Below, in pieces: positions 3,573 through 64,000 of a stretch of DNA of 64,000 nucleotides; the stretch's first letter is position 1; every line of letters begins with the position of its first letter. The notes under the pieces were generated by a model, which was not told the origin of the DNA, did no database searches, and worked only from the letters and a program-made list of their open reading frames with translations. The translations under genes were made by a program, and so were the position numbers. The DNA lies in NCBI GenBank assembly GCA_021414085.1, contig JAIOPC010000008.1, positions 62,001-126,000 on the forward strand. The letters are read 5' to 3'. The DNA is from Actinomycetes bacterium. Lineage in GTDB: Bacteria; Actinomycetota; Acidimicrobiia; Acidimicrobiales; Ilumatobacteraceae.

Positions 3573-4403
3573 TCAGGTGCGCGTTGAGGCAGATTCGTGC
3601 CAGTTACGTATCGCTCGTGTTGAAACAAAACCGATGATCAAGAACATCACGATCCCGAAGAGCGACGCCATGATCGTGCCGGCGAACATCTCCGGTCGTT
3701 CGGCCGCGCGTTGCTGTTTGACACGAATGTAGAAACCGATGCCCTTCTCGCCGCGAGTGAAGAAGAAGTCGGCAACAACCGCGCCAATGACGGCACCGCC
3801 CGAGGCGATGCGCACTCCAGTCATCATCGCCGGCATCGCGCCAGGGAGTTCCAACTTCAGCAACCTTGTGACGCGGTTCGCCCGATTCAGCGTGAACAGG
3901 TCGTGATGCAACCGATCCGCAGATTGCAAACCAAACAGAGTGTTGGTAATCACGGGGAAGATCGCGATGAGCACAACGACGACGAGCCGAACTCCGAACT
4001 CCTCGCCGAAGAGCTGGGTAAGCAGCGGCGTGATTGCGAGAATCGGAACGGTCTGCAACACGACGGCATAGGGAAAGATCGCCCGCTCTGTGCTCTTCGA
4101 CAGATTCATCAGCACGGCGATCAGAACACCAAGCACCACCGACACGGCGAGCCCGACGATGGTCACCTTCAAGGTCGGCCACAAGTAGCCGAGGATGGGG
4201 CGTAACCCGTTCTTGCTGTCCCACAATGGAAGAAAGCCGTCGCGGATCACTTCATGTGGGAACGGAAGCGTGTTGATGCGTCGCGCGGCGATGTCGTACT
4301 TCAGGCCACTGTACGCATACCAAACCCCGATAAACCCGGCGAACGTAACCGCCGGTGGCCAGACCTTGCTGAACCACGATGTCGAACGGGTCTCGCTGCT
4401 CAC
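3573..4403 (-). CDS. ABC transporter permease, ThiX/SsuC/TauC-like
   Basis: 276-residue inner-membrane permease with about six transmembrane helices and the BPD_transp_1 coupling region around VTRLLKLELPGAMPAMMTGVRIA (about two thirds along), which contacts the ATPase. The frame is open to 4442, but GTG 4403 overlaps the ATPase stop as GTGA, a standard coupling arrangement, so that start was chosen. Neighbours are the matching ATPase upstream and the substrate-binding protein downstream, which together form a complete importer. Confidence 0.88.
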   Translation of the reverse strand: MSSETRSTSWFSKVWPPAVTFAGFIGVWYAYSGLKYDIAARRINTLPFPHEVIRDGFLPLWDSKNGLRPILGYLWPTLKVTIVGLAVSVVLGVLIAVLMNLSKSTERAIFPYAVVLQTVPILAITPLLTQLFGEEFGVRLVVVVLIAIFPVITNTLFGLQSADRLHHDLFTLNRANRVTRLLKLELPGAMPAMMTGVRIASGGAVIGAVVADFFFTRGEKGIGFYIRVKQQRAAERPEMFAGTIMASLFGIVMFLIIGFVSTRAIRNWHESASTRT

Positions 4404-51526: not shown

Positions 51527-52405
51527 GTGAGAGACGAACAGACCTTCAGTTTCGACGTGTGCGTTGTTGGTAGCGCCAATCTCGATTTGGTGGCGACCGT
51601 GCAACAGCTGCCCGGCCCAGGTGAGACCGTTGCGGGCGACACTTACCGTGAGTATCCGGGCGGCAAGGGCTTGAACCAGGCGGTTGCAGCCGCACGCGCG
51701 GGCGCCAGTGTTGCGTTCGTCGGCGCTGTCGGTGGCGACGCCGCCGGAACTGTCTTACGGGCCGTACTGACGAATGACCACATCGATGCCGGCCACCTCG
51801 AAACGGTTGACGCACCAACGGGGCGCGCACTCATCGGGGTTGCCGCCACCGGCGAGAACTCGATCATCGTCGTACCGGGCGCTAACGCAGCCGTGACGGG
51901 AGCTGGCGCACCGAGCACCCGTGTCGTGCTCGCCCAGCTCGAGGTTCCGCTCGCCGCTGTCGAGTTGGCGCTGCGCAACGCGCGGTCGGCCAGATCGCTG
52001 ACGGTGCTGAACCCGGCACCGGCGCAGGCGATCGACGAATCGATTCTCCGCTGGTGCGACATTGTCGTTCCCAACGAGCACGAAATCGAGTTGCTCGGAG
52101 GCGTCGATCGCCTGCTCGATCTTGGTGCTCGCGCCGTGGTCGTCACACTCGGCAGTCGCGGTGCCGAACTGCACTCTGCCACGGGCGTCACCCACGTCGA
52201 CCCTTTCGTTGTGACCGCCATCGACACGACGGCAGCTGGCGACTCGTTCTGTGGCGCACTGTGTGCTCGCCTCGCTGCCGGCGACGAACTTCTCGTCGCG
52301 CTGCGCTTCGCTTCAGCGGCTGGCGCGTTGTGCACAACCAAAGCCGGCGCGGTGCCATCGATCCCGACGCGGGCCGAGATCGACGCTCTAATCGACGCGA
52401 CGTAA
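51527..52405 (+). CDS. rbsK: Ribokinase (PfkB family)
   Basis: 292-residue sugar kinase. Motifs are VVGSANLDLVATV, PGPGETVAGDTYREYPGGKGLNQAVAAARAGA (family signature 1), LNPAPA, VVVTLGSRGA and the catalytic DTTAAGDSFCGAL (signature 2). Phosphorylation of ribose is the likely reaction; no ribose transporter is nearby. The last 18 bp overlap the convergent gamma-carbonic-anhydrase gene. Confidence 0.87.
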   Translation: MRDEQTFSFDVCVVGSANLDLVATVQQLPGPGETVAGDTYREYPGGKGLNQAVAAARAGASVAFVGAVGGDAAGTVLRAVLTNDHIDAGHLETVDAPTGRALIGVAATGENSIIVVPGANAAVTGAGAPSTRVVLAQLEVPLAAVELALRNARSARSLTVLNPAPAQAIDESILRWCDIVVPNEHEIELLGGVDRLLDLGARAVVVTLGSRGAELHSATGVTHVDPFVVTAIDTTAAGDSFCGALCARLAAGDELLVALRFASAAGALCTTKAGAVPSIPTRAEIDALIDAT

Positions 52406-52906
52406 CTCAGCGCGGTAGCGGTGCCCACGCGCAACGTACGTCGCGACGCCGTCAGCGGTGTCAGCCGGACGCGCGCGATCAAGCTTGATGACTGCGGGCG
52501 TGCCGACGGCGAGCGCGCCCGATGGAACATCGGTGTCGTTGAGCACGACTGCGTTTGCGCCAACGACGGCACCCGAGTGCACCACCACTCGATGGAGTAC
52601 GACGCTCGCATTACCAATCAGGCAACCGGACTCGATCGTGCAACCCTCGAGGTGCACCATGTGTCCGACCACGCAATCGTCGCCGACGATGGTGGGGCTA
52701 TCCACGGTCGTGTGCAGCACGCTGTTGTCCTGCACGCTGGTGCGCGCTCCAATCACGATCGAGCCTTCGTCGCCGCGTAGCACCGCGCCGGGCCACACCG
52801 TGCTCTCCGCTCCGATGGTGACGTCGCCGATAATCACAGCGTCGGGGTGCACAAAAGCGGTCGGATGGATCGTGGGAGTGAGGTCACCGAGGGCGTAGAT
52901 GGGCAC
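52388..52906 (-). CDS. Gamma-carbonic-anhydrase-like hexapeptide-repeat protein
   Basis: 172-residue left-handed beta-helix protein (repeats such as VIIGDVTIGAESTVWPGAVLRGD). The zinc-site region reads VLHTTV and VGHMVHLEGC. In typical family members the second segment is GHxxxxH; here the usual third His position is Glu and a His stands three residues after the first. Zinc binding may therefore be altered. GTG 52906 is supported by TACCCT at 7 nt. Confidence 0.85.
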   Translation of the reverse strand: MPIYALGDLTPTIHPTAFVHPDAVIIGDVTIGAESTVWPGAVLRGDEGSIVIGARTSVQDNSVLHTTVDSPTIVGDDCVVGHMVHLEGCTIESGCLIGNASVVLHRVVVHSGAVVGANAVVLNDTDVPSGALAVGTPAVIKLDRARPADTADGVATYVARGHRYRAELRRVD

Positions 52907-52913
52907 GCCCGAA

Positions 52914-52919
52914 AGGGTA
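52914..52919 (-). promoter_or_regulatory. -10 element, probable leaderless promoter of gamma-carbonic-anhydrase-like gene
   Basis: TACCCT on the minus strand, 7 nt before GTG 52906. Confidence 0.45.
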
Positions 52920-52959
52920 CCTAGGTGTTTTGATGGGGAGCGAAGCGCCGTTCAGCAGA

Positions 52960-52965
52960 TACCGT
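52960..52965 (+). promoter_or_regulatory. -10 element of RG-rich protein gene
   Basis: TACCGT, 8 nt before ATG 52974; the spacer itself contains GGAGGG. Confidence 0.35.
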
Positions 52966-52973
52966 GGAGGGCA

Positions 52974-54494
52974 ATGTCCCGCAGGATTGATATCGAACTG
53001 ACCAGCACGCGCCCCGACGGCATGTGGACGTGGCGCGCCGCCGGAGCACAGCAGCCCAAGGGCGTGCTGGATGGCTCGATCCTGCCGAGCAATGCCGCGG
53101 CCGGCATGGTGATGAAGGCTGACGCCGAATTCGAACTGGATGGCATCACCATCCTCTCGGTTTCGGCCACTAAGCAGAAGGCCGAGAAGTCGGGACTGCT
53201 TGCGTTCATCCCCAGCGACAAGCCATTCGAAGCAGTGATGCAAACACTCGCCAAGCGCGAGCGCGGCGATCGTGGGCCGCGCCCCGACCGCGGCGACCGC
53301 CCCGATCGCGGCCCCCGTCGCGATCGTCCGGGTGGCCCAGGCGCACCCGGTGGCCCACGCACTCCCCGCTCCCCCAGCGATCGCCGCCCAGGCGAGCGCA
53401 CCCCCTCTGACCGAGGGCCGCGCCCCGAGCGCACTCCTTCTGATCGTGGCCAGCGTGCCGAGCGTGGTCCGCGCCCCGAGCGTCGCCCGCGTTTCGAAGC
53501 TCCGCCCGAGTTGCCGTTGCGTCCGAAGGCGAAGCGCCTAAAGCCCGGTCGCAATCATCGCAACGCTGCACTGTCGGCGTTACCCGAAGAACACCGCGCG
53601 GTCGCCGAACGGGCGCTGCTTGGTGGTATCCCTGCGGTTCGCCTCGCCGTCAATGAGCAAAACGAGCGTCTGAAGAGCGAAGGCAAGGAACAGATTCCGG
53701 CGGCGGGCCTACTGGCAATCGCCGAGCAACTGTTGCCAAAGCTGCGTGTCGCCGAATGGCTCGATCGCGCCGATGCTGCGATGGCCGACCTTGAGGAACT
53801 CGATCTGCGCGATCTGCGCAGCGTTGTGGCTTCGTCAGAAGACCCGATGGTGGCTCGCGACGAGACCACGCGCGAGCTCGCCGGCAAGCTGAAAGAAGGC
53901 CTGGTCGCGAAGCAGGAGAAAGAGCTGAACCTGTGGTTCGGCGATATCGATGCTGCGCTTGGCGTTGGCCGTGTTGTCCGTGCGCTGAAGCTTTCCTCGC
54001 AGCCGCCCAAGGCGGGCGTGCGCTTTCCTGCCGAACTCGGCACCAAGCTGGCCACAGCAGCAACCGGCAACCTGTCCACCGATGCACTGCCCGAGCGATG
54101 GATCGCTGTTCTTGAGGCTGTTGCCTTCAGCCCGATCCGCGCGCAGGTCAAGCCCACCGAGAAGCCCGCGCAGGTCAACGACGAGCTAATGAAGACGATC
54201 AAGCGGGTCGGCCCATTGCTGCCCGCAATCGCGGCGCTGTTTGGTGTTGAGGTCAACGCGAAGGCACAGCCCAAGCCGCTTCGCCCCACGCGCGCCACTG
54301 CGCCAGTGAAGAAGCAGATCCCCAAGCCCCCGACTGCAGTAGTCGCTGAAGCGGTCGCCGAGCCGGCTGCCGAGGCCGTCGCTGAGCCGGTTGTTGAAGT
54401 GGCTGAGCCGGTTGTTGAAGCAGTCACCGAGCCGGTTGTTGAAGTGGCTGAAATCGTCGAGCCCGCTGCCGACGAGCCAATCGTCGAATCCTGA
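52974..54494 (+). CDS. Disordered RG/RP-rich protein, possible RNA-binding
   Basis: 506 residues in four parts: (1) ~1-90, a compact beta-type domain (IDIELTSTRPDGMWTWRAAG); (2) ~98-185, low-complexity Arg/Gly/Pro/Asp repeats (GDRGPRPDRGDRPDRG, TPSDRGPRPER); (3) ~190-440, helical (NHRNAALSALPEEHRAVAERAL, NLWFGDIDAALGVGRVVRALKLSS); (4) an acidic, Val/Pro/Glu tail with repeated AEPVVE units. The RG-rich middle suggests RNA binding or phase separation. No known family assigned. ATG 52974 follows GGAGGG. Confidence 0.75.
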   Translation: MSRRIDIELTSTRPDGMWTWRAAGAQQPKGVLDGSILPSNAAAGMVMKADAEFELDGITILSVSATKQKAEKSGLLAFIPSDKPFEAVMQTLAKRERGDRGPRPDRGDRPDRGPRRDRPGGPGAPGGPRTPRSPSDRRPGERTPSDRGPRPERTPSDRGQRAERGPRPERRPRFEAPPELPLRPKAKRLKPGRNHRNAALSALPEEHRAVAERALLGGIPAVRLAVNEQNERLKSEGKEQIPAAGLLAIAEQLLPKLRVAEWLDRADAAMADLEELDLRDLRSVVASSEDPMVARDETTRELAGKLKEGLVAKQEKELNLWFGDIDAALGVGRVVRALKLSSQPPKAGVRFPAELGTKLATAATGNLSTDALPERWIAVLEAVAFSPIRAQVKPTEKPAQVNDELMKTIKRVGPLLPAIAALFGVEVNAKAQPKPLRPTRATAPVKKQIPKPPTAVVAEAVAEPAAEAVAEPVVEVAEPVVEAVTEPVVEVAEIVEPAADEPIVES

Positions 54495-54505
54495 CAGCGC
54501 ACTAC

Positions 54506-54511
54506 TAATGT
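54506..54511 (+). promoter_or_regulatory. -10 element, probable leaderless promoter of crotonase gene
   Basis: TAATGT, 7 nt before ATG 54519. Confidence 0.4.
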
Positions 54512-54518
54512 CGGCGCC

Positions 54519-55304
54519 ATGTCCGACATCGTCAAGTATCAAACTCAGGGTCGCGTTGCCGTCATCACACTGAATCGCCCCGAGGCGCGCAACGCCATCA
54601 ACGGCGACGTAGCCCAGGGCATGGAAGCGGCCATCGACAAGATGGAAGCCGACAACGAGGTGTGGGTTGGCATCATCACCGCCAACACTGAGGGCCAGGA
54701 ACGCCCGGTCTTCTCGGCCGGCGCCGATCTCAAAGCACTCAACTCCGGCCAAGCCGCACAGCTGTACACCGAGAAGGGCGGCTTCGGCGGGTTCGTCTAT
54801 CGCGATCGCAAGAAGCCGGTGATCGTGGCCGTCGACGGGCTCGCGACAGCCGGTGGTTGCGAGCTTGTGCTTGCTGCCGACCTCGTTGTGGCCACGACGC
54901 GCAGCGCGTTCGGTCTCGCCGAAGTGAAGCGCAACCTGATCGCTGGTGCCGGCGGCCTCTTCCGCCTGCCGCGTGCAATTGGTCAAGCTGCGGCGATGGA
55001 GGCCATCCTCACCGGCGAGCCGATCCCTGCGGCCCGCGCATACGAGCTGGGCCTACTCAGCCGCCTTGTGGAACCAGGTAAGGCGCTCGACGCGGCGATG
55101 GAACTGGCACTCAAGATCTGCGAGGCAGCGCCGCTCGCCGTGTGGGCCAGCCGCAAGGTTGTTCTTGCCTCGGCCACCGCCGACGACGAGACGCTGATTC
55201 GTATGACCAACGAAGGCTTCGCTGCGGTGTTCGCCTCGGAAGACACGAAGGAAGGTCTGACGGCCTTCATCGAGAAGCGACCACCGAAGTGGGCCGGTCG
55301 CTAG
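54519..55304 (+). CDS. Enoyl-CoA hydratase/isomerase (crotonase) family protein
   Basis: 261-residue crotonase-fold enzyme acting on acyl-CoA. The oxyanion-hole segments FSAGADLKAL and GLATAGGCELVLAADLVVAT are seen, with the FGLAEVKRNLIAGAGGLFRLPRAIG stretch holding the position of the second catalytic acid. Fatty-acid beta-oxidation is the likely setting; no thiolase or dehydrogenase partner is in the window. Convergent GNAT gene 3 bp downstream. Confidence 0.9.
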   Translation: MSDIVKYQTQGRVAVITLNRPEARNAINGDVAQGMEAAIDKMEADNEVWVGIITANTEGQERPVFSAGADLKALNSGQAAQLYTEKGGFGGFVYRDRKKPVIVAVDGLATAGGCELVLAADLVVATTRSAFGLAEVKRNLIAGAGGLFRLPRAIGQAAAMEAILTGEPIPAARAYELGLLSRLVEPGKALDAAMELALKICEAAPLAVWASRKVVLASATADDETLIRMTNEGFAAVFASEDTKEGLTAFIEKRPPKWAGR

Positions 55305-55307
55305 TCG

Positions 55308-55751
55308 CTAAAGCGACTTAGAGACGGTGATCTTGCGGGCAGTGATTCCCGCTCGCTCATACAAGTTCTTGGTAGCCCGATCACCGGGTAACGCGAAGCC
55401 CTCTATCACCGTGCAAGCCCGGCTGCGCGCTTCTTCGATGGCGGCTTCCAACATCCAGTCGCCGAACCCGATCTCACGCGCCTCCGGTTCGACATACACC
55501 TGCATGACTCGCGCCGTGTCGCCGGCGATCTCTAGCTCGATGTAGCCCAGCACGACATCGTCGATTGTGCTGACCCACACTGGTCGATCGGCGCAGTCGG
55601 CGAGTGCCGCCCACTTCCCCACCGGTGGCCGTTCAGCGAGGTGCGCAGGGCCGCCGCGTTGATCGAGCAACGCTGCGCGCGCGTCACGTTCGAGTTGTGC
55701 CACCGCCTCGGCATCGTCGACAGCCAATCGGCGGATGACCTGTTGCATCAC
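55308..55751 (-). CDS. GNAT-family N-acetyltransferase
   Basis: 147 residues. GNAT core: a first helix (VDDAEAVAQLERDARAALL), beta strands VLGYIELEIAG and ARVMQVYVEPEAREIGFGDWMLEAAIEEA, where the usual acetyl-CoA loop RGxG reads EIGFG, and the late NLYERAGI. Substrate not known. Start is GTG 55751 (or ATG 55748), overlapping the upstream stop. Confidence 0.83.
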   Translation of the reverse strand: MMQQVIRRLAVDDAEAVAQLERDARAALLDQRGGPAHLAERPPVGKWAALADCADRPVWVSTIDDVVLGYIELEIAGDTARVMQVYVEPEAREIGFGDWMLEAAIEEARSRACTVIEGFALPGDRATKNLYERAGITARKITVSKSL

Positions 55752-56164
55752 GAGTCGATCAGCTGATCGATCTTGGCCAACACCGTGCGTCGACCGCGCT
55801 TGCGTTGCTCGTACACCCGAATCAGGGCCAGCTCCGCAACTGGGAAGTTCGACAGCACCTGCACCAGCCGATCCGCTGGCAATTCGTCGTAGCCATCAAA
55901 CGGCGGAGGCGACTCCACCTCAGCGTCGGCTACTTCGGTGACGCCCGGCGCACCTGTGCTCGTGAGTCGGCGCTTCAGTTCGGCGCGCCCGTAGGTCACC
56001 GACATTTCGCCGATCCAATGCGCAACACGCACTCGTTCTTCCACCTCGCGACGGCCCGATGAGACCAGCGATGGCAGATCGTCGCGCAACCGACGCAGCA
56101 GCCCAACCGGGGCGAAGATCGCGATATCGAGCACCCGTTCGTGAAGTGGGCGCTGGTCGGTCAT
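55748..56164 (-). CDS. Hypothetical cytoplasmic protein
   Basis: 138 residues, rich in charged residues, helical at the start (LHERVLDIAIFAPVGLLRRLRDDLPSLVSSGRREVEERVRVAHWIGEMSV) with an ordered end (YDELPADRLVQVLSNFPVAELALIRVYEQRKRGRRTVL). The middle is acidic and Pro-rich. No known family is recognised with confidence. ATG 56164 was selected; the longer frame would cross into unrelated sequence. Coupled to the GNAT gene. Confidence 0.7.
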   Translation of the reverse strand: MTDQRPLHERVLDIAIFAPVGLLRRLRDDLPSLVSSGRREVEERVRVAHWIGEMSVTYGRAELKRRLTSTGAPGVTEVADAEVESPPPFDGYDELPADRLVQVLSNFPVAELALIRVYEQRKRGRRTVLAKIDQLIDS

Positions 56165-56184
56165 TGTCGATGAGGTACTGGTCG

Positions 56185-56826
56185 TCAGCGGAACAGTGGG
56201 CACTCGTCGTCGCCCACTGGGCACACCGGGGCACCCTGGCGTACGAGAAGGAAACAAGTAGGGCACAACTGCTCGTCGGCACGTTTGGGCTGGATGCGAT
56301 CGGCCGCCTCGCCCCGTTCTTCAGGCCCTTCTTCTTCATTCTCGTCTTCGTCGTCGGTAGCGACCATTCGATCCTTGAGGATCGTGTCGAGATCGGCCTC
56401 CACATCGTCGGGGGCTGGCGTCTCGTCGTCGTCGTCTTCGTCTTCGGCGACTACCGCACGCCGCACTGGGCCGCTGGTGTCGTCGTCGTCTTCTTCCTCG
56501 TCCTCATCGTCGGCAACGACAAACTCGTCGTCGAGAGCGACAAAGTCGTCGTCGACCTCGAGTGCATCGACTTCGAGGGCGTCTTCATCGAGTTCACCCG
56601 GGTCGAGTTCACCTGGATCGAGTTCGACCTCTTCGTCGTCGTCGACCTCATCTGCATCGTCAATGGGCAGATCGGCGTCGTCTTCGGGGTCGCTGGCACG
56701 CTTCTTATCGGCCGGCTTGTCGACGGCCTTCTTGTCGACCTTCTTGGCGACCGCTTTCTCCACCTTCTTGGCGGGCTTCTTCTCAATCTTCTTGTCGGGC
56801 TGCTTCTCAGGCTTCTTCGCCATCAT
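56185..56826 (-). CDS. DUF4193-like protein with long charged N-terminal region
   Basis: 213 residues. The first ~45 are Lys-rich (KKPAKKVEKAVAKK), the next ~120 almost entirely Asp/Glu with Val/Leu (e.g. VDDDEEVELDPGELDPGEL). The end, IQPKRADEQLCPTCFLLVRQ, resembles the close of actinobacterial DUF4193 proteins, with extra Cys (PVCPVGDDECPLF) that could bind zinc. Short DUF4193 relatives are ~100 residues, so this one is longer. AAGGA precedes the ATG; a CRP-like palindrome lies 84 bp upstream of the start. Confidence 0.75.
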   Translation of the reverse strand: MMAKKPEKQPDKKIEKKPAKKVEKAVAKKVDKKAVDKPADKKRASDPEDDADLPIDDADEVDDDEEVELDPGELDPGELDEDALEVDALEVDDDFVALDDEFVVADDEDEEEDDDDTSGPVRRAVVAEDEDDDDETPAPDDVEADLDTILKDRMVATDDEDENEEEGPEERGEAADRIQPKRADEQLCPTCFLLVRQGAPVCPVGDDECPLFR

Positions 56827-56909
56827 TGATCCTTGTCCGTGACCTGGTTATGTCACCCCGCGAGGCCCGGGATACTACGGCGGGCACCGTCGGAGGTTGT
56901 TCGCCGCTC

Positions 56910-56927
56910 ATGTGACAACCGTCACAT
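56910..56927. promoter_or_regulatory. CRP/GlxR-like palindrome
   Basis: ATGTGAC-AACC-GTCACAT, a perfect inverted repeat matching TGTGA-N6-TCACA. It lies between the ThyX stop and the DUF4193-like start (84 bp before the latter), so it may be an operator or a weak terminator hairpin. Confidence 0.5.
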
Positions 56928-56958
56928 TGCCTTCAAACTGCTGGTGCGACCACCCCGT

Positions 56959-58560
56959 TCATGTCGGACTTCGTCGGGCCTGGGCCCGCCGTTCACTGTC
57001 GAGACGTTCGAGTTCTGGCGCCTCGGTGGTCAGGTGCGTCATCGCTGAGGCCACAGCCCGGTGACCGGCCTGCTCGGCGATCAGGCGATGCATTTCGAGG
57101 ACAATGCGCCGATACGAAGGGTGGCCCTGCGGCGAGGAACGGAGTTCGAGCAAATGAATTGCCTCGCGCGCGTTGAATTGCATGGTGTAGCGCATGCGAT
57201 AGGCCATGCAGACCGCGTACGGCGCCTGTTGCGGGAACTCTTCCCTCAGTGCGTCGTATAGAGCCGCCGACCGAGCCATCGCATCATCGAAAATCTCGGC
57301 CATCCCGGCTTCTTCAACCAGTTCGGGCCGCACGTATCCGTGGTTCGGAGTCAAGCCCTGCCACTCGATGGTCAGCATCCGGTGCCGTTGCAGATCGCGG
57401 AATGCGCCGTAGTCGCTGAGTACGTCGAAGCGATAGTCCACGCGCTCGAATGCTCGGCCGGGCTTGTAGCGCCGGTTCTCGCGTTCGCCGATGTACGCCT
57501 TCAAGAGTGCGAGCCGCTCAGTTGGCCCAAGTTGGCGAACCCGTTCGGCAATCTGTTGCTCGGGAATGTGCGTGAGCGGGTAGCAGATCGCGGCGAGCAG
57601 TTTGTCTTCGGCGTCTGGGTCGAAGTCGAGCAGTTGCACGGATGGCACCTGATCGACAGGTGTTCCCGCGAAGAGTGATTCGACCAGCTCGCTCGTGTTG
57701 TCGCGAGTCGCGCCGAGGTAGTTGCTCCAGCGCCCTCCGCGATCGGCAATGTCGACGCGGCGCAGGAAGCTCGGGATGACTTTGCGCAGCTCGTGCAGCA
57801 TCAGATCGGCGTAGTGCCGCGCCTCGGGCAACGGATGCGAGCGCATGCGCACCAGCAGCGTCTCGAATGCCTGGCCAGAGGCGTAGATGCCGACGTTGCT
57901 GAGCGATGCCGCCGGCAGCACACCGCGAACAGCGTCGAGCGCCTTCGCCTTGGTGGCCATGCGGTACACGAAATCGCTGTCGCCGGATTCGCGTGGCACT
58001 GTTGCCCGAACATGTTCGGTCACCTTGTTCAGCAGCACGCTGTAACTGTCGAACATGCGGTCCATGTCGCCGACGTAGCGAGTGCCAAAGCGACTGGAGA
58101 GAATCACCGGGTCGCGATAGAAACGAAAGCGGCCACCGAGGCGCGCGTCGTAGGCGATGTAACGCGTGCTCTGCTCGAGGTAGCTCATCAGCCGGCCCCA
58201 CTCGAGCACCTTGGTCAGGATGTTCGACGCTTGTTCACACGCCAGATGCACGCCGCCAAGCTGCGCGACTGAGTCGTCGCCGTACTCGAAGAAGACCTTC
58301 TCGTACAGTTCCTCGGCGCGCTCCAAACCGACTGTGGCGTCGACGGTGATGTCGCCCGAAATGTCGAGGTCGCCCACGAACTCGTCGAGGAACAGCCGAC
58401 GCAGGCTCTTCGGACTGCGGCTGTAGCGAGCAAACAATGCTCCCTTCACAACCTCCGGAAGATTGACGAGCGCGAACACCGGACCATCGAGGTTCGTGAA
58501 GTAGCGCCGCAAAATGTCGGACTCGGCGTCGGTGTATTCCTCGGGGACATAGACCGTCAC
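56959..58560 (-). CDS. Two-domain ThyX-like flavin-dependent thymidylate synthase
   Basis: 533 residues, roughly double a normal ThyX (~220-250). The first half has GDDSVAQLGG and WGRLMSYLEQSTRY (121-134), where the ThyX signature RHRxxSxNxxSxRY is kept only in its second part. The second half has RHRMLT at 392-397 and NAREAIHLLELR, where the first part is kept. ThyX makes dTMP from dUMP using FAD and methylene-THF. The protein may form one composite active site, or be a specialised relative. GTG 58560 is preceded by TACAAT. Confidence 0.8.
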   Translation of the reverse strand: MTVYVPEEYTDAESDILRRYFTNLDGPVFALVNLPEVVKGALFARYSRSPKSLRRLFLDEFVGDLDISGDITVDATVGLERAEELYEKVFFEYGDDSVAQLGGVHLACEQASNILTKVLEWGRLMSYLEQSTRYIAYDARLGGRFRFYRDPVILSSRFGTRYVGDMDRMFDSYSVLLNKVTEHVRATVPRESGDSDFVYRMATKAKALDAVRGVLPAASLSNVGIYASGQAFETLLVRMRSHPLPEARHYADLMLHELRKVIPSFLRRVDIADRGGRWSNYLGATRDNTSELVESLFAGTPVDQVPSVQLLDFDPDAEDKLLAAICYPLTHIPEQQIAERVRQLGPTERLALLKAYIGERENRRYKPGRAFERVDYRFDVLSDYGAFRDLQRHRMLTIEWQGLTPNHGYVRPELVEEAGMAEIFDDAMARSAALYDALREEFPQQAPYAVCMAYRMRYTMQFNAREAIHLLELRSSPQGHPSYRRIVLEMHRLIAEQAGHRAVASAMTHLTTEAPELERLDSERRAQARRSPT

Positions 58561-58568
58561 GGGGGTGG

Positions 58569-58574
58569 ATTGTA
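58569..58574 (-). promoter_or_regulatory. -10 element, probable leaderless promoter of ThyX-like gene
   Basis: TACAAT on the minus strand, 8 nt before GTG 58560; the closest to consensus of the set. Confidence 0.5.
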
Positions 58575-58612
58575 CGGTGGACGCCCGAGGCCGTTAGGGA
58601 TGCACCCGAGTG

Positions 58613-59809
58613 CTACAGAACCTCGACGCCACCTGGTCGGGTAGCGAATGCGGCCTGCGTTTGGTCGAGCACGCCGGGTGACGCCCAAAGATCGATCACC
58701 GTCATCGCCATGGCCTTGGCCCCGTCCAGAACAGCCTTGTCCCCCTCGGCGGTCGCCGCCCAATGTGCGAAATCGACGCTGTGGATCGGCACGCCATCGG
58801 GCGCGACCTTGATCATCGGGTGGATCGACGGCACGAGATAGCTGATGTTGCCCATGTCGGTACTGCCGACCACGCGCCGGCCGCTGGCCACCGGATCAAG
58901 CACGGAGCGCCCGAGCCGCGCGGCATTCGCCACGTATGCCTGCACCATCGGTCCGTTGTCGACCATGTCGGCGTAGGGGTTCACGTCCCACTCATGGCTC
59001 ATCGTGCAACCGCACGCAGTCGCCGCGCTCTCCAAGCACGTCAGCACGCGCTGCTTCAACGGCTGCAGCGACGAAATGGTTCCGGAGCGCACGTACCAAT
59101 CCATCGCAGTATCGGAGGGCACGATGTTTGGCTTGTCGCCGGCTTTGGTGAAGATCCCGTGGATGCGCTCGTTTGGCCGAATGTGCTGGCGCATCGCGGC
59201 GATGTTCATGTAGCCGAGCACCGCCGCGTCGAGCGCATTGCGACCCTCCCACGGTGCTGCCGCCGCGTGTGCTGCCCGGCCTGAGAAGGCAACGGTGAGT
59301 TCGTGGATGGCGATGCAGTCCATTGCGATCAAGTCGGCATCGGCTGGGTGCACCATCATCGCCGCGTCGACGCCGTCGAAGGCACCAGCGCGCGCCATAC
59401 GCACCTTGCCGCCGCCGCCCTCTTCCGCGGGAGTGCCCATGATGCGCACTCGCCCACCGGCCTGCTCAGCCACGGCCGCCGCTGCGAGGCCAGCACCAAG
59501 CCCCGCGGTCGCGATGATGTTGTGGCCACACGCGTGGCCGATGCCGGGCAACGCGTCGTACTCGCACAGCACAGCGATCGATGCGCCTTTCGTGCCGGCT
59601 TCCGCGTCGAACGCGGTCTCCAGGTCGTAGGCATGGCGCGTCACGTTCAGGCCGTGGCGATTGAGCATGTCGGTGAGCAGGTCGTGCGCGAACCGCTCCT
59701 CGAAATTCTCTTCCGGATGCGCATGGATCTCGCGGCTGGCGTGGATCAGTTCGTCGGCCAACTCATCGACTCGGTCACACGCTGCTTGCTTCAATTCCTC
59801 GACGTTCAT
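58613..59809 (-). CDS. M20-family amidohydrolase (AbgB / IAA-amino-acid hydrolase type)
   Basis: 398-residue metal-dependent amidase. Motifs are CEYDALPGIGHACGHN (metal ligands incl. Cys-Gly-His), GTPAEEGGGG (metal Glu) and FSGRAAHAAAAPWEGRNALDA (dimerisation-domain His). The family hydrolyses aminobenzoyl-glutamate, IAA-amino acids or N-acyl amino acids. ATG 59809 begins one base after the MDR stop, so the genes are coupled. It may act on a compound linked to the oxidoreductase. Confidence 0.88.
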   Translation of the reverse strand: MNVEELKQAACDRVDELADELIHASREIHAHPEENFEERFAHDLLTDMLNRHGLNVTRHAYDLETAFDAEAGTKGASIAVLCEYDALPGIGHACGHNIIATAGLGAGLAAAAVAEQAGGRVRIMGTPAEEGGGGKVRMARAGAFDGVDAAMMVHPADADLIAMDCIAIHELTVAFSGRAAHAAAAPWEGRNALDAAVLGYMNIAAMRQHIRPNERIHGIFTKAGDKPNIVPSDTAMDWYVRSGTISSLQPLKQRVLTCLESAATACGCTMSHEWDVNPYADMVDNGPMVQAYVANAARLGRSVLDPVASGRRVVGSTDMGNISYLVPSIHPMIKVAPDGVPIHSVDFAHWAATAEGDKAVLDGAKAMAMTVIDLWASPGVLDQTQAAFATRPGGVEVL

Positions 59810-59810
59810 G

Positions 59811-60803
59811 TCATCCCTCCGAGTGCTGCAGCACAATCTTGCCGAGTTGCTCGCCCTGATCAAGCCGGGCAACCGCCGCGGCGTAGTCGGCGAGTGGATA
59901 TGTGCGGTCGATGTGCACTGCCACGCCCTGCTCGATCAACGTCGACACGGCATCGAACTCTTCGTAGCTGCCCATGGTGCTGCCGATGATTTCGTTCTGT
60001 TTGAAGAACAATCGCGGCAAGTTGACCTCGACCTTCGCTCCCGACGTGCCACCACACACGACGAGGCGCCCACCAGGCTTGAGTGAACGCACGGATTGCT
60101 CCCACGTGGCAGGCCCGACGCTTTCGATCACGACATCGGCTTGCACAGGCCACTTCGCGTCCGCGCTGTCATATGCCGCGGCGGCGCCCATTGCGAGCGC
60201 CTCGGCCCGCTTTGCCTCGCTGCGACTGGTGGCGACGACGGTGCAGCCCATGTGTTCGGCAATCGCCAATGCCGCGCATGACACGCCCGAACCAATTCCT
60301 ACGACGAGGACGGTCTGGCCGGCTTCGGCGCGGGCACGGCGCAGCATGCGATAGGCGGTGAGGTACACGAGTGGGTATGCCGCGCACTCCTCCCACGAGC
60401 GACCGGCGGGGCGCCGGCGCACGTTGCGACTGGGAGCGATGGCGAACTCGGCGTGCCCACCCCAGCAGTGCTCGCCATAGATGAAGAAGCCGGGCCCCAT
60501 CGGACTGTCGTTGCCCAGCGCGGCGATGTCTTCCAACGGAGAAACACCTGGGTTGATCACGACCTCGTCGCTGACTGCCACACTCGTGACGTCGGCGCCG
60601 ATCGCACACACGATGCCGGCAACATCGCAGCCGGGTACGTGCGGCAACGGCGGCTTAGGCATGCCACGCGTGACCCACAGGTCCATGTGGTTCAGCGCGC
60701 TGGCGACAACACGCACCTGCACGTCGTCGGCCGCGAGTGGTGGCAGGTCGATTTCGCCGAAGCGATAGGTGCCAGGAGATTCGTCGAGGATCCACGCCTT
60801 CAT
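59811..60803 (-). CDS. MDR-superfamily zinc-type alcohol dehydrogenase / quinone oxidoreductase
   Basis: 330-residue NAD(P)H-dependent oxidoreductase. It has the GroES-like amino-terminal domain (ALNHMDLWVTRG, VPGCDVAGIV) and Rossmann motif VVGIGSGVSCAALAIAEHMG. Classical ADH zinc ligands are only partly conserved and the four structural Cys are absent. Substrate unknown. TAGGGT lies 8 nt before the ATG. Confidence 0.87.
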   Translation of the reverse strand: MKAWILDESPGTYRFGEIDLPPLAADDVQVRVVASALNHMDLWVTRGMPKPPLPHVPGCDVAGIVCAIGADVTSVAVSDEVVINPGVSPLEDIAALGNDSPMGPGFFIYGEHCWGGHAEFAIAPSRNVRRRPAGRSWEECAAYPLVYLTAYRMLRRARAEAGQTVLVVGIGSGVSCAALAIAEHMGCTVVATSRSEAKRAEALAMGAAAAYDSADAKWPVQADVVIESVGPATWEQSVRSLKPGGRLVVCGGTSGAKVEVNLPRLFFKQNEIIGSTMGSYEEFDAVSTLIEQGVAVHIDRTYPLADYAAAVARLDQGEQLGKIVLQHSEG

Positions 60804-60811
60804 GACAGCCG

Positions 60812-60817
60812 ACCCTA
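60812..60817 (-). promoter_or_regulatory. -10 element, probable leaderless promoter of MDR oxidoreductase gene
   Basis: TAGGGT on the minus strand, 8 nt before ATG 60803. Confidence 0.4.
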
Positions 60818-60821
60818 ACGC

Positions 60822-61430
60822 TCAGGCGTAGACGATGAGGGCGTCCGGCTCGACTGCGACGGTTACCTCGGCGGCGGTCCCCCAGCGCACGCCATCAACC
60901 CAGATCACGAGCGGTCGCGCGAACGCCAGCGAGTATTCGCCGACTTGCCGCGCTGTCAGTCGTGGGTGCGGCAGGTGCGTTCCGGTTCGCGCTCGTCGAG
61001 CAGCTGCTCGCCGCGCGCGCCATGTCATGTCGGCGGCGACGTGCAGAATGTCGACCTTGCCATCGTTGGGGTGCGAGCGCGGCGCAACGTCGTACGGGCC
61101 GAGGAACTCGGCGTTCATTGCGAACAGCACCTCGCCGCGATGCCAGGTACGCCTCGCGACCACGTGAGCAACTGCCCAGGTGACGCGGTCGCCAGCCTGT
61201 ACGCGCAACAGATCGATGGTCGCCTGCGTCACCGTCCCCGGAAACCGATTCTGACCTCCGCCCATCGTGCGCGCCATGTCGCCACCACCAAGTCCGAGCG
61301 GTCGCAGCGTGTCGCCGCGCTCACGCTGGCGTACGACGAACTCGCGTGCATCGCGATCGGTCGGCACCACACGCAGATCGGTTGGCGAGGGCACGGCGAC
61401 ACCCCACGGCATGCCCTTCTCGATCGTCAC
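60822..61430 (-). CDS. Diacylglycerol-kinase-like protein lacking the GGDGT motif
   Basis: 202 residues. PLGLGGGDMARTMGG aligns with the PLGTGNDFARTLG motif of DAGK/YegS-type lipid kinases, and the end (PNDGKVDILHVAAD, PHPRLTARQVGEYSLAF, IWVDGVRWG, VAVEPDALIVY) matches their carboxy-terminal beta domain. The amino-terminal half with the catalytic GGDGT is missing, so kinase activity is doubtful. GTG 61430 overlaps the helicase stop (GTGA). Possibly a regulatory relic or a lipid-binding protein. Confidence 0.65.
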   Translation of the reverse strand: MTIEKGMPWGVAVPSPTDLRVVPTDRDAREFVVRQRERGDTLRPLGLGGGDMARTMGGGQNRFPGTVTQATIDLLRVQAGDRVTWAVAHVVARRTWHRGEVLFAMNAEFLGPYDVAPRSHPNDGKVDILHVAADMTWRARRAAARRARTGTHLPHPRLTARQVGEYSLAFARPLVIWVDGVRWGTAAEVTVAVEPDALIVYA

Positions 61431-64000
61431 GCGCCTTCCACCTCGACGGCGCTGGACGCGGAGACGACACCCCGGAACAATGCCTCGGCCGCCGCTTCCG
61501 CGCTGTGCCGCGTTTCCTTCAACGGAGCGATCAGCGCCAGCTGGCGCAAGAGGTCGATGAGCTGCTTCATCGTGCGCACAAAGTCGCCACCCGACAACTC
61601 CTCGGCCGCAACCACTTCCGCGAACCCCTCCCCCGCGGCCCAGGCAAAGGCGACCGCGATGAACGTCGGGTCGGGTGGCCGATGCACGGCGAGGCCCGCC
61701 TCTTCCTCCGCATCTTGCATCTCGTAGCTGATGCGTGCGATCGACTGCCAGCGTCGACGCACCATCGGCGACGAGTACCACGGTGCCGGCGGCGGCTCGG
61801 GGCTGCGGTGCTCGTACACGAAGACGCTGACCAGCCCGGCGAGCGACGGCGGATCGAGGCCGTCGAGCAATCCCTGGCGCACCGACTCGACGACGAGGAG
61901 ATCGCACTCATGAAACAGGCGGGCGAGGATGTCGCCGCCTTCCGTCAGCGACCACCCGTCGACGTAGCCCCACGTCTGCAACACGCGCAGCACGCGATCG
62001 AAGTCGCGGGCGATCGACTGGCTGCGTCCTTGCACGCGCACGCGGAGTTCCTCGACTTCCCGCGCGGCGCGGTCGGCCTGGGTTGCCGCTTTCATGCGAT
62101 CAGCCAGGTCCGGATCATCCTCTACCGGATGCTCACCGTCGTAGGCGGCTGCCGCGTGGCGACGGCTGCGGGTCACCGCCGTCACCTCCGCTTGCTCAAG
62201 CAGCGTCGCGACGCGCCGTTGAAAGTCGTTGCGGTTCGGCGCGTAGTCGGCCGGCAGTTCGATACGGCCGATGGCCGTCGGCGGCTCGTAGAAGTCGCTC
62301 GCCGACAACATCAGCAGATCGCGTCGCGTCGTCAAGGCGGTCAGCCGGATCCCACCTTTGCGGTGTGCGTTCGACAGCACGGCGGCGCGCCCCACATAGC
62401 GACCCTTCTCGACGTGCAGAATGTCGCCAGGTCGCACCCGCAGCAGCGCAAGCGTCACCGGGTCGTCGCGCACGATCGGACTCGGCGGCGGACGCTCGCC
62501 TTGCTTCTTCAACCGCCGGTACTCCTCAAGATCACCGTACGGACTACGCGCCTTCTCAAGGTGCTCGGCTAGTTGCAGTTGCCGACGCGCGAGTCGCGCT
62601 TCCAGCTTCACGACGTCGCGGTCGGCTTGGTACTGCGCAAACGACAGGTTCAGCAGGTGGTGCGCGCGCTCGCTGGTGTACGAACGCACGAGGTTGGCCG
62701 CCATGTTGTACGTCGGTCGAAACGCTGAGTTGAGGTGAAAGGTACGACTGCCGACGAGCGTGGCCACTTGTTCGAAGGGCACGAATGGGCTCCACAGCAC
62801 CACCGCGTGCCCAAGTTCGTCGAGGCCGCGGCGACCGGCACGACCGGTGAGCTGGGTGTACTCGCCAGCAGTGAGGAACGTGTGGTGATCACCGGTGAAC
62901 TTGCTCAGCTTCTCGATCACGACGGTCTTGGCTGGCATGTTGATGCCGACGGCCAATGTCTCGGTGGCAAACACCGCCTTCACCAGCCCCTCAACAAAGC
63001 AGGCTTCGACCACTTCCTTGAATGGCGGCACCATGCCCGCGTGGTGCGCGGCGACGCCAGCTTCCAGTTGTGCGACGAACTGGGCGTAGCCCAGCACGGC
63101 AAGGTCGGCAGGGTCCATCGCGCCGAGTCGCGCATCGACAATCTCGCGGATGCGGTCGCGGTCGGCGGCGGTGGTCAGGTGAATGTCGGCGGCGAGACAC
63201 GACTTGGCAGCCTCGTCGCACTGGTTGCGGCTGAAGATGAAGTAGATCGCGGGAAGCATCCGTTGGCGTTCGAGTACCTCGATGACTTCCAGCCGCGACG
63301 GTGTGAAGAGTCGACGGCGCCCGTGCTGCTTGCCGACCGGACTTCCACCGCGTCGGTCGCGACTGTGGCGAACTGCCTCGGCATCCAACCTGATCGCATC
63401 GCTGTTTGGCCGACCGCTGATCAACACCGGCAGCAAGTGCATCCGGTCGTGGGTCTGATCGCCAATCATGTAGTGGTTGTCGAGCTGCACCGGGCGCCGA
63501 TCTTCAAGCACCGTCTGCGTCGGCCCGCGCACGGTGCTGATCCACTCAGCGAGCTCCGCCGCGTTGCTCACTGTCGCCGACAGGCACACCAAGCGCACGT
63601 GAGCCGGAAGGTGAATGATCACCTCTTCCCACACTGGGCCGCGATACGTGTCCTGCAGAAAGTGCACCTCGTCGAGCACGACGATCGCCAGCTCGCGCAA
63701 ACCGGGGCTGCGCGCATAGATCATGTTGCGCAGCACCTCAGTAGTCATAACGACCACATCGGCGTCGCCGTTGATGGTGTTGTCACCAGTGAGCAGACCA
63801 ACTCGCTGCGGACCGAGACGCTCAACGAGGTCGTGATACTTCTGATTCGATAGCGCCTTGATCGGTGCCGTGTAGAACGCGCGCTTGCCATCGGCGACCG
63901 CGGCATCGATCGCATACTCGGCGACCACCGTCTTGCCGCTACCGGTTGGCGCGGCGACGAGCACGGACTCGCCTTCGTCGAGGGCGTTGAGCGCGCGTAA
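61427..64000 (-). CDS. helY: SKI2-like superfamily 2 RNA helicase HelY (partial)
   Basis: Runs off the right edge; 857 residues visible. Helicase motifs seen: Walker A APTGSGKT, motif II DEVH, SAT in LVCLSATVSNA, and later TGRAGRRG (motif VI). The long carboxy-terminal part (rRNA-processing/arch and helical-bundle regions) is complete, ending VEVEGA. It is the bacterial Mtr4/Ski2 relative typical of actinobacteria, presumably acting in RNA turnover. Coupled to the DAGK-like gene. Confidence 0.92.
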   Translation of the reverse strand, partial: LRALNALDEGESVLVAAPTGSGKTVVAEYAIDAAVADGKRAFYTAPIKALSNQKYHDLVERLGPQRVGLLTGDNTINGDADVVVMTTEVLRNMIYARSPGLRELAIVVLDEVHFLQDTYRGPVWEEVIIHLPAHVRLVCLSATVSNAAELAEWISTVRGPTQTVLEDRRPVQLDNHYMIGDQTHDRMHLLPVLISGRPNSDAIRLDAEAVRHSRDRRGGSPVGKQHGRRRLFTPSRLEVIEVLERQRMLPAIYFIFSRNQCDEAAKSCLAADIHLTTAADRDRIREIVDARLGAMDPADLAVLGYAQFVAQLEAGVAAHHAGMVPPFKEVVEACFVEGLVKAVFATETLAVGINMPAKTVVIEKLSKFTGDHHTFLTAGEYTQLTGRAGRRGLDELGHAVVLWSPFVPFEQVATLVGSRTFHLNSAFRPTYNMAANLVRSYTSERAHHLLNLSFAQYQADRDVVKLEARLARRQLQLAEHLEKARSPYGDLEEYRRLKKQGERPPPSPIVRDDPVTLALLRVRPGDILHVEKGRYVGRAAVLSNAHRKGGIRLTALTTRRDLLMLSASDFYEPPTAIGRIELPADYAPNRNDFQRRVATLLEQAEVTAVTRSRRHAAAAYDGEHPVEDDPDLADRMKAATQADRAAREVEELRVRVQGRSQSIARDFDRVLRVLQTWGYVDGWSLTEGGDILARLFHECDLLVVESVRQGLLDGLDPPSLAGLVSVFVYEHRSPEPPPAPWYSSPMVRRRWQSIARISYEMQDAEEEAGLAVHRPPDPTFIAVAFAWAAGEGFAEVVAAEELSGGDFVRTMKQLIDLLRQLALIAPLKETRHSAEAAAEALFRGVVSASSAVEVEGA

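Follow-up and report, generated by a model that had tools for sequence, protein, structure and literature searches.

Two fused ThyX domains with divided catalytic residues: a probable composite thymidylate synthase

The locus described here raises the question of whether a thymidylate synthase can work when its active-site residues are divided between two fused domains. In the window, that is, the whole stretch of 64,000 nucleotides that was analysed, one gene encodes a polypeptide with two domains of the flavin-dependent thymidylate synthase ThyX, and the contiguous ThyX signature RHRxxSxNxxSxRY (used as quoted in the original prediction) has no match in this protein, being divided over both halves. 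Thymidylate is the nucleotide that sets DNA apart from RNA, and thymidylate synthase is essential for making DNA. The present analysis suggests, with a probability of roughly three in four, that the protein is a flavin-dependent thymidylate synthase with an active site divided between its two ThyX domains, and that it would operate as a two-chain pseudo-tetramer. Complementary sites are the best-supported reading of the data, from which we infer the activity, the stoichiometry, and the assembly; the halves probably must join to make thymidylate.

Pfam Thy1 (PF02511) matches the 533-residue protein over two stretches, with a total of 116.3 bits against a cut-off of 24.8; when the genome is searched, the halves also exceed this cut-off separately, with 60.8 and 54 bits. 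According to the original prediction, the first half keeps S...STRY (126–134) and lacks RHR, and the second half keeps RHR (392–394) and lacks SxRY. Both statements are confirmed: residues 121–134 are WGRLMSYLEQSTRY, with no His at the middle position of the RHR place in any of 71 aligned two-domain proteins (0/71), and the RHR of the second half is read directly, the same division recurring by pattern in 164 of 164 proteins. Beyond that signature, R212 (of RxxLP) sorts with the first half and R474 (of LR) with the second.

The split-motif trait is a property of a large family and not of one protein. Among the best 80 of at least 571 confirmed relatives, the identities reach 87% for metagenome-assembled genomes (MAGs) of Acidimicrobiaceae, 85% for Ilumatobacteraceae, and 76% for Ilumatobacter nonamiensis, so that the window would most probably derive from Ilumatobacteraceae or a neighbouring group. 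The motifs are split in 167 of 167 two-domain proteins, the window's included, 164 of these by pattern and three from phages (Microcystis phage Ma-LMM01, Microcoleus phage My-WqHQDG, and Vibrio phage BONAISHI; 3/3, with one F for Y). The pattern requires ExS[TQ]RY in the first half, followed at a distance of 150 residues or more by RHR or RHNR. None of the 164 proteins has RHR near the first-half motif or SxRY within 35 residues past the second-half RHR, and the reversed arrangement never occurs (0/164). Under a loose pattern, one relative (L089) matched the full signature (1/164); the match falls in its RRHKPGR region and was rejected as a coincidence. The set of 164 is the sum of 62, 9, 81, and 12 proteins and is redundant, some species and at least one plasmid being present twice. 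The single-domain ThyX proteins carry both motifs together in 31 of 31 cases under a relaxed signature and in 25 of 31 under the strict one; this set favours typical ThyX, because it was drawn from the best-scoring Thy1 matches, with L104 added.

In the alignment of 71 two-domain proteins, six first-half residues (E129, S131, R133, Y134, R212, P216) and five second-half residues (R392, H393, R394, G408, R474) are invariant (71/71). Y448, which is Tyr in 70 of the 71 and which the profile alignment sets at the place of the second-half RxxLP Arg, lies at 57217–57219 of the window. The alignment combines 62 rows (61 two-domain proteins of the phylum and the window's), within which pairwise identity is as low as 36%, with nine distant proteins: two from other actinobacterial classes and one from Bacteroidota (plasmid records), four from Bacilli plasmids, and two from phages. 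Left out of the 62 rows were L001, L002, L033 (the window itself), L094 (truncated where its contig stops), and L102 (a protein outside the two-domain family). Proteins bearing the split thus occur in Actinomycetota, in one Bacteroidota record, on Bacilli plasmids, and in phages. The split is not due to chance, because the motif residues of both halves are invariant and the division holds family-wide. The window protein shows the architecture by which the two-domain form was recognized, namely ExSxR[YF] and RxxLP in the first half and RHR and LR in the second.

The ThyX active site is assembled from several subunits, as the original prediction had stated, and RHR and SxRY are contributed by different ones (PMC6514825). 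Subunit A contributes RHR 95–97, which binds flavin adenine dinucleotide (FAD) and, through R95, also deoxyuridine monophosphate (dUMP), together with R199 (dUMP); subunit B contributes S71 and R190, both to FAD; and subunit C contributes R87, S105, and R107 (dUMP), the lid residue Y108, and the main chain of Q103. The phosphate in PolB is contacted by F79, R82, and H83 from one monomer and by S96′, A97′, R98′, and R166′ from its neighbour (PMC5003785), and an inhibitor in the dUMP pocket of a viral ThyX contacts Q75 and R182 on one monomer together with S88 and Q89 on a second (PMC3498832). In ThyX, R174 activates dUMP, and S88, R90, and Y91 assist methylene transfer (PMC8316439); R78 is located at the flavin N1, and H53 on a third monomer (PMC11940539).

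The residues of the two-domain family were mapped onto these roles by profile alignments to solved ThyX structures, which matched, while a phmmer search of the solved structures with a single protein gave no ThyX match. The EQSTRY of the first half aligns with QLSQRY of Mycobacterium tuberculosis ThyX and its wgR with RHR, and the RHR, NxR, and LR of the second half align with RHR, NAR, and LR of Thermotoga maritima ThyX. The second half retains the subunit-A set (RHR, R199/R174) and the first half the subunit-C set (Ser, Arg, Tyr, and the RxxLP Arg), the window polypeptide containing all of the subunit-A (RHR, R199) and subunit-C (S105, R107, Y108) residues. Since the halves keep sets that are given by separate ThyX subunits, complementary sites are the natural reading. 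With the A set in the second half and the C set in the first, a composite site needs the second half in role A and the first half in role C; the opposite pairing lacks most of both sets and should be dead. Judged from its RxxLP motif, R212 would be the counterpart of R147 of T. maritima ThyX (presumably the number of the RxxLP Arg in that protein) and of R166 of PolB. The first half has no equivalent of the subunit-C residue R87 of M. tuberculosis ThyX, N113 standing in its place, and by the alignment this Arg is absent from T. maritima ThyX too.

The main evidence for function, which is not a proof, is the pattern in which the two-domain protein, ThyA, and single-domain ThyX replace one another. 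The window's genome (3.2 Mb, 97% complete) has no ThyA match (PF00303) and no further Thy1 match (PF02511); a second, normal thymidylate synthase, which the original prediction regarded as refuting evidence, was thus not found by these searches. DHFR_1 (dihydrofolate reductase) has no match in this genome either, nor has thymidine kinase, and thymidine salvage was on the latter ground rejected as a way out for this genome. Of the 119 class genomes sampled, 101 carry the two-domain protein, eight have a single-domain ThyX instead (all of one genus with genomes of about 1 Mb), and ten have ThyA instead. Among the 101 two-domain matches, those of G303, G371, G374, and G375 are cut at a contig end, and that of G305 is split over two contigs. 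PF00303 matches are found in three of the 101 genomes. G354, in which an intact ThyA adjoins DHFR, is the only one with an intact ThyA apparently its own; the ThyA gene of G178 is interrupted by about 1 kb and lies on a phage-like contig of 7,155 bases; and the match in G204 is weak and falls on an open reading frame (ORF) of 218 residues. DHFR_1 matches occur in 11 of the 119 genomes, comprising seven of the ten with ThyA and four of the 101 (G354, G178, G279, and, weakly, G303). No thymidine kinase is found in 55 of the 101 two-domain genomes, and one is found in 46, three of these weak, so that salvage is possible in the latter. In a sample of 296 genomes of the phylum, 95 have the two-domain protein (E values up to 1e-30) and 92 of these have no PF00303 match, while in one of the other three, G124, the match covers 74 model positions; PF00303 matches are present in 88 of the other 201 genomes, many of them weak.

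Some further observations were made in these genomes. Five of the phylum sample (G009, G039, G050, G072, and G154), which lie outside the 95, have a single weak Thy1 match (E values of 1e-9 to 1e-11) and no good ThyA. In families f29, f31, and f35, genomes that lack Thy1 often show no more than a weak and partial match to PF00303, in frames of about 220–330 residues, some of them with a stop read through; these frames are perhaps short ThyA proteins of the archaeal type. The interrupted ThyA of G178 (contig C39, L210) lies in pieces at 1965–2624 and 3602–3889, and its insert of about 1 kb holds a small ORF that appears to start like a GIY-YIG homing endonuclease; an intron was sought in this insert with Rfam, and no match was obtained. 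The contig, which also carries DHFR, has the look of phage DNA that was placed in the bin of a genome resembling Acidimicrobiia.

Both halves are predicted to adopt the ThyX fold. A first AlphaFold2 model, with a poor first half and a pLDDT (predicted local distance difference test) of 74.7, gave a ThyX match for the second half only. The second model (32 sequences) has a pLDDT of 84.5 and a pTM (predicted template modelling score) of 0.80, the rise in pLDDT having come with a more diverse alignment. Model residues 305–514 match T. maritima ThyX (3g4a_B) with Z 16.5 and a root-mean-square deviation (rmsd) of 2.4 over 191 aligned residues, and residues 20–278 match M. tuberculosis ThyX (3hzg_A) with Z 12.9 and an rmsd of 3.8 over 208; the first half of the second model is aligned in 2 of the 50 structure-comparison rows shown. 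In a viral model library, the best two matches, both spanning the full length, are a 491-residue protein of Microcystis phage Ma-LMM01 and an unnamed protein of 461 residues.

In the mechanism that we propose, two chains would assemble into a pseudo-tetramer resembling the ThyX homotetramer. Each second half would bind one FAD through RHR and set R474 on dUMP, and a first half, of the same or the other chain, would close over the FAD/dUMP site with S131, R133, Y134, and R212. The reaction would proceed as in ThyX, from methylenetetrahydrofolate to the flavin N5 and on to dUMP, with NADPH (reduced nicotinamide adenine dinucleotide phosphate) reducing the FAD. There would be two composite sites per dimer instead of four, and one FAD per chain (about 58 kDa) is expected, because only two of the four geometric sites would be complete. 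The arrangement would have arisen by tandem duplication followed by complementary loss. It seems likely to us that an ancient tandem ThyX, present in several actinobacterial lineages, a Bacteroidota record, Bacilli plasmids, and phages, has in this way turned into an enzyme that works only as a composite: two chains would form a pseudo-tetramer in which two sites are complete and the other two permanently dead, with one FAD per chain. The original prediction had suggested a pseudo-dimer with complementary sites; the complementary sites are supported, and the pseudo-dimer is here refined to a two-chain pseudo-tetramer.

Several observations weigh against the proposed mechanism. The sorting is not clean for the third set of residues, which binds the FAD phosphate (in M. 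tuberculosis, S71 and R190 from subunit B): the Ser belongs to the first half in all 71 proteins, and the Arg to the second half in 65 of them; the four Bacilli proteins and that of Tunturiibacter phage Tunturi_5 have this Arg in the first half, and the Vibrio phage protein has it in neither. The window protein has the Ser in the first half and the Arg in the second. One may speculate that this Arg can reach the phosphate from either side of the local two-fold axis. At the column of R174 the first half has R238, aligned via a one-residue gap and present in 60 of 62 actinobacterial and four of nine distant proteins, the Bacilli not among them; role A is not wholly lost from the first half, since R238 is retained. 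Where T. maritima ThyX has the folate-stacking His H53, the actinobacterial proteins have Asp in 62 of 62 cases (D95; 58276–58278), the Bacilli and phage proteins having the His. The score for the NCBIfam thyX equivalog TIGR02170 falls short of the cut-off (36.7 bits, with 87.9 required). With four motif clusters, random assignment to the halves would produce a perfect sort with odds of 1 in 8, and the argument therefore rests on joint conservation and loss throughout the family rather than on the sort. In addition, the ThyX of Corynebacterium glutamicum is not required for thymidylate synthesis, according to the titles of PDB entries 3fnn and 3ge9.

The decay of one copy after a domain duplication is common, and the protein could accordingly be a normal ThyX with a degenerate fused copy, one half working and the other structural; that the second half is the better fold match would agree with this. 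However, no half has the full set of residues, RHR and SxRY motifs near each other are found in 0 of 164 proteins, and both retained sets are equally invariant, and we consider such a decayed copy highly improbable. We have equally strong doubts that the protein is a ThyX paralogue acting on another nucleotide substrate or in another reaction, as PolB does on uridine monophosphate, with thymidylate coming by an unknown route. PolB does show that ThyX relatives can use another substrate (PMC5003785), and D95 in place of H53, Y448 at the R147 place, and an altered loop after RHR suggest changed details. On the other hand, the two-domain protein alternates with ThyA and single-domain ThyX over the 119 genomes of the class, a phage copy is found beside a dCMP (deoxycytidine monophosphate) deaminase and near a dUTPase, and a copy on a Euzebya plasmid is near dcd.

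Composite sites might also be formed within one chain, as a functional monomer, or in an assembly that is not of the ThyX type. The shifting of the FAD-phosphate Arg between the halves among groups does indicate that details of the assembly may differ, yet ThyX sites draw on three subunits (PMC6514825), and two domains can supply two roles. Unless the remaining role can be dispensed with, a second chain would have to provide it, and we regard a monomeric or differently assembled enzyme as unlikely.

An origin by tandem duplication and complementary loss, most simply once, is proposed for the divided enzyme. In a tree built from 29 first and 29 second halves, with 18 single-domain ThyX proteins, all first halves group together (100/99), as do the second halves among themselves (98/98), and both groups contain proteins from actinobacteria, Bacteroidota, Bacilli, and phages; because the halves fall into two mixed-phylum groups, the tree fits one tandem duplication followed by descent and transfer. 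The single-domain ThyX proteins do not form one group, that of M. tuberculosis standing beside the first halves (93/96). These groupings come from short divergent domains with several long branches, a long-branch warning, and an unsettled bootstrap.

The two-domain form is also carried by phages and plasmids. In Tunturi_5 the gene follows that of dCMP deaminase, with a dUTPase gene three genes upstream on the other strand, and the Euzebya plasmid has its copy near dcd. Four Vibrio phage copies are annotated as hypothetical, and ten relatives from plasmid records are named FAD-dependent thymidylate synthase. The phage family phrog_36506, which is named thymidylate synthase and has 491 positions, matches the Tunturi_5, Vibrio, and L206 proteins. 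Scans of viral contigs with single phage proteins as queries gave no match, and scans with alignments as queries gave 1 and 12 loci. A 278-kb record titled as a Parabacteroides distasonis plasmid (NZ_OY725790.1) has a two-domain ThyX 46% identical to the window's, adjoining OmpA-family and galactose-1-epimerase genes; it is perhaps a chromosomal piece and perhaps a sign of transfer between phyla. A Paenibacillus plasmid and a viral contig of IMG/VR, both with a two-domain ThyX, have the same length of 228,841, and the plasmid may therefore be a phage-plasmid. Among the matches listed, two MAGs titled Bifidobacterium breve (L160 and L173) have a two-domain ThyX 72% and 67% identical to the window's; these titles look wrong, and the MAGs appear rather to be of Acidimicrobiia. 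An Rfam scan of window positions 52000–62000 gave no match. The coordinates of the gene and of its motifs are collected in Table 1.

Table 1. Position of the two-domain ThyX gene, its halves, and its motifs in the window
Feature	Position	Strand	Basis or remark
Two-domain ThyX gene	56959..58560	minus	533 aa, GTG start; whole length conserved among relatives
First half, residues 1-298, ThyX-like, retains the dUMP-loop set	57667..58560	minus	Pfam Thy1 stretch; model match
Second half, residues 305-514, predicted ThyX fold, retains the FAD set	57019..57648	minus	model match
Residues 121-123, WGR at the first-half RHR place	58192..58200	minus	profile alignment to solved ThyX
Residues 129-134, EQSTRY, at the places of E86, S88, R90, Y91 of T. 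maritima ThyX	58159..58176	minus	profile alignment
Residues 212-216, RGVLP, with the RxxLP Arg, putative dUMP-phosphate contact	57913..57927	minus	R and P in 71/71
Residues 392-394, RHR, FAD- and dUMP-binding by alignment	57379..57387	minus	71/71; RHNR in the Bacilli group
R474, at the place of R174 (T. maritima) and R199 (M. tuberculosis ThyX)	57139..57141	minus	71/71; profile alignment

If the proposed mechanism is true, each half would be unable to act alone, the protein would represent inter-subunit complementation as it occurs in nature, and most of a bacterial class would have it as the sole thymidylate synthase. A widespread form of the enzyme seems to divide one site along the line by which the subunits of the homotetramer share it, and it is a clear candidate for duplication and complementary loss in an essential enzyme. 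The three-subunit ThyX site becomes testable in a single gene, in which the halves can be mutated separately, as is not possible in the homotetramer. Genomes whose only identified thymidylate synthase is the two-domain ThyX also gain in credibility as to their annotation.

As a sequence family the two-domain form is already known, and what is new is the mechanism proposed for it. Our literature searches returned no account of the divided residues, and a paper outside the searched literature may exist; the excerpts of PMC9931769 and PMC5954106 contain no tandem, fused, or duplicated ThyX. Valas and Bourne (2009) noted an uncharacterised domain-duplicated ThyX of Chloroflexi (PMC3224940), which is probably of the same family as the window's; the excerpt of that paper does not mention divided catalytic residues. 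With ThyX itself (PF02511; T. maritima TM0449 and the M. tuberculosis enzyme) the window protein shares the domain family and, in both halves, the predicted fold; RHR, R174, ExSxRY, and RxxLP are all represented in its polypeptide, and the genomes that have it are mostly without ThyA and DHFR. It differs from ThyX in having two domains per chain, divided residues, no contiguous signature, and a thyX equivalog score below the cut-off. The Thy1 of Thermus thermophilus, which has an extra C-terminal domain according to the title of PDB entry 6j61, is a longer ThyX, as is the window's, but with 270 residues and one matched ThyX stretch it is not a tandem. A parallel in form is provided by the two-domain thymidylate synthases of phages (Ma-LMM01, Tunturi_5; phrog_36506), whose identity to the window's protein is low (24% for Tunturi_5) and one of which, from a Vibrio phage, lacks the FAD-phosphate Arg in both halves, but which have the same architecture and the same split.
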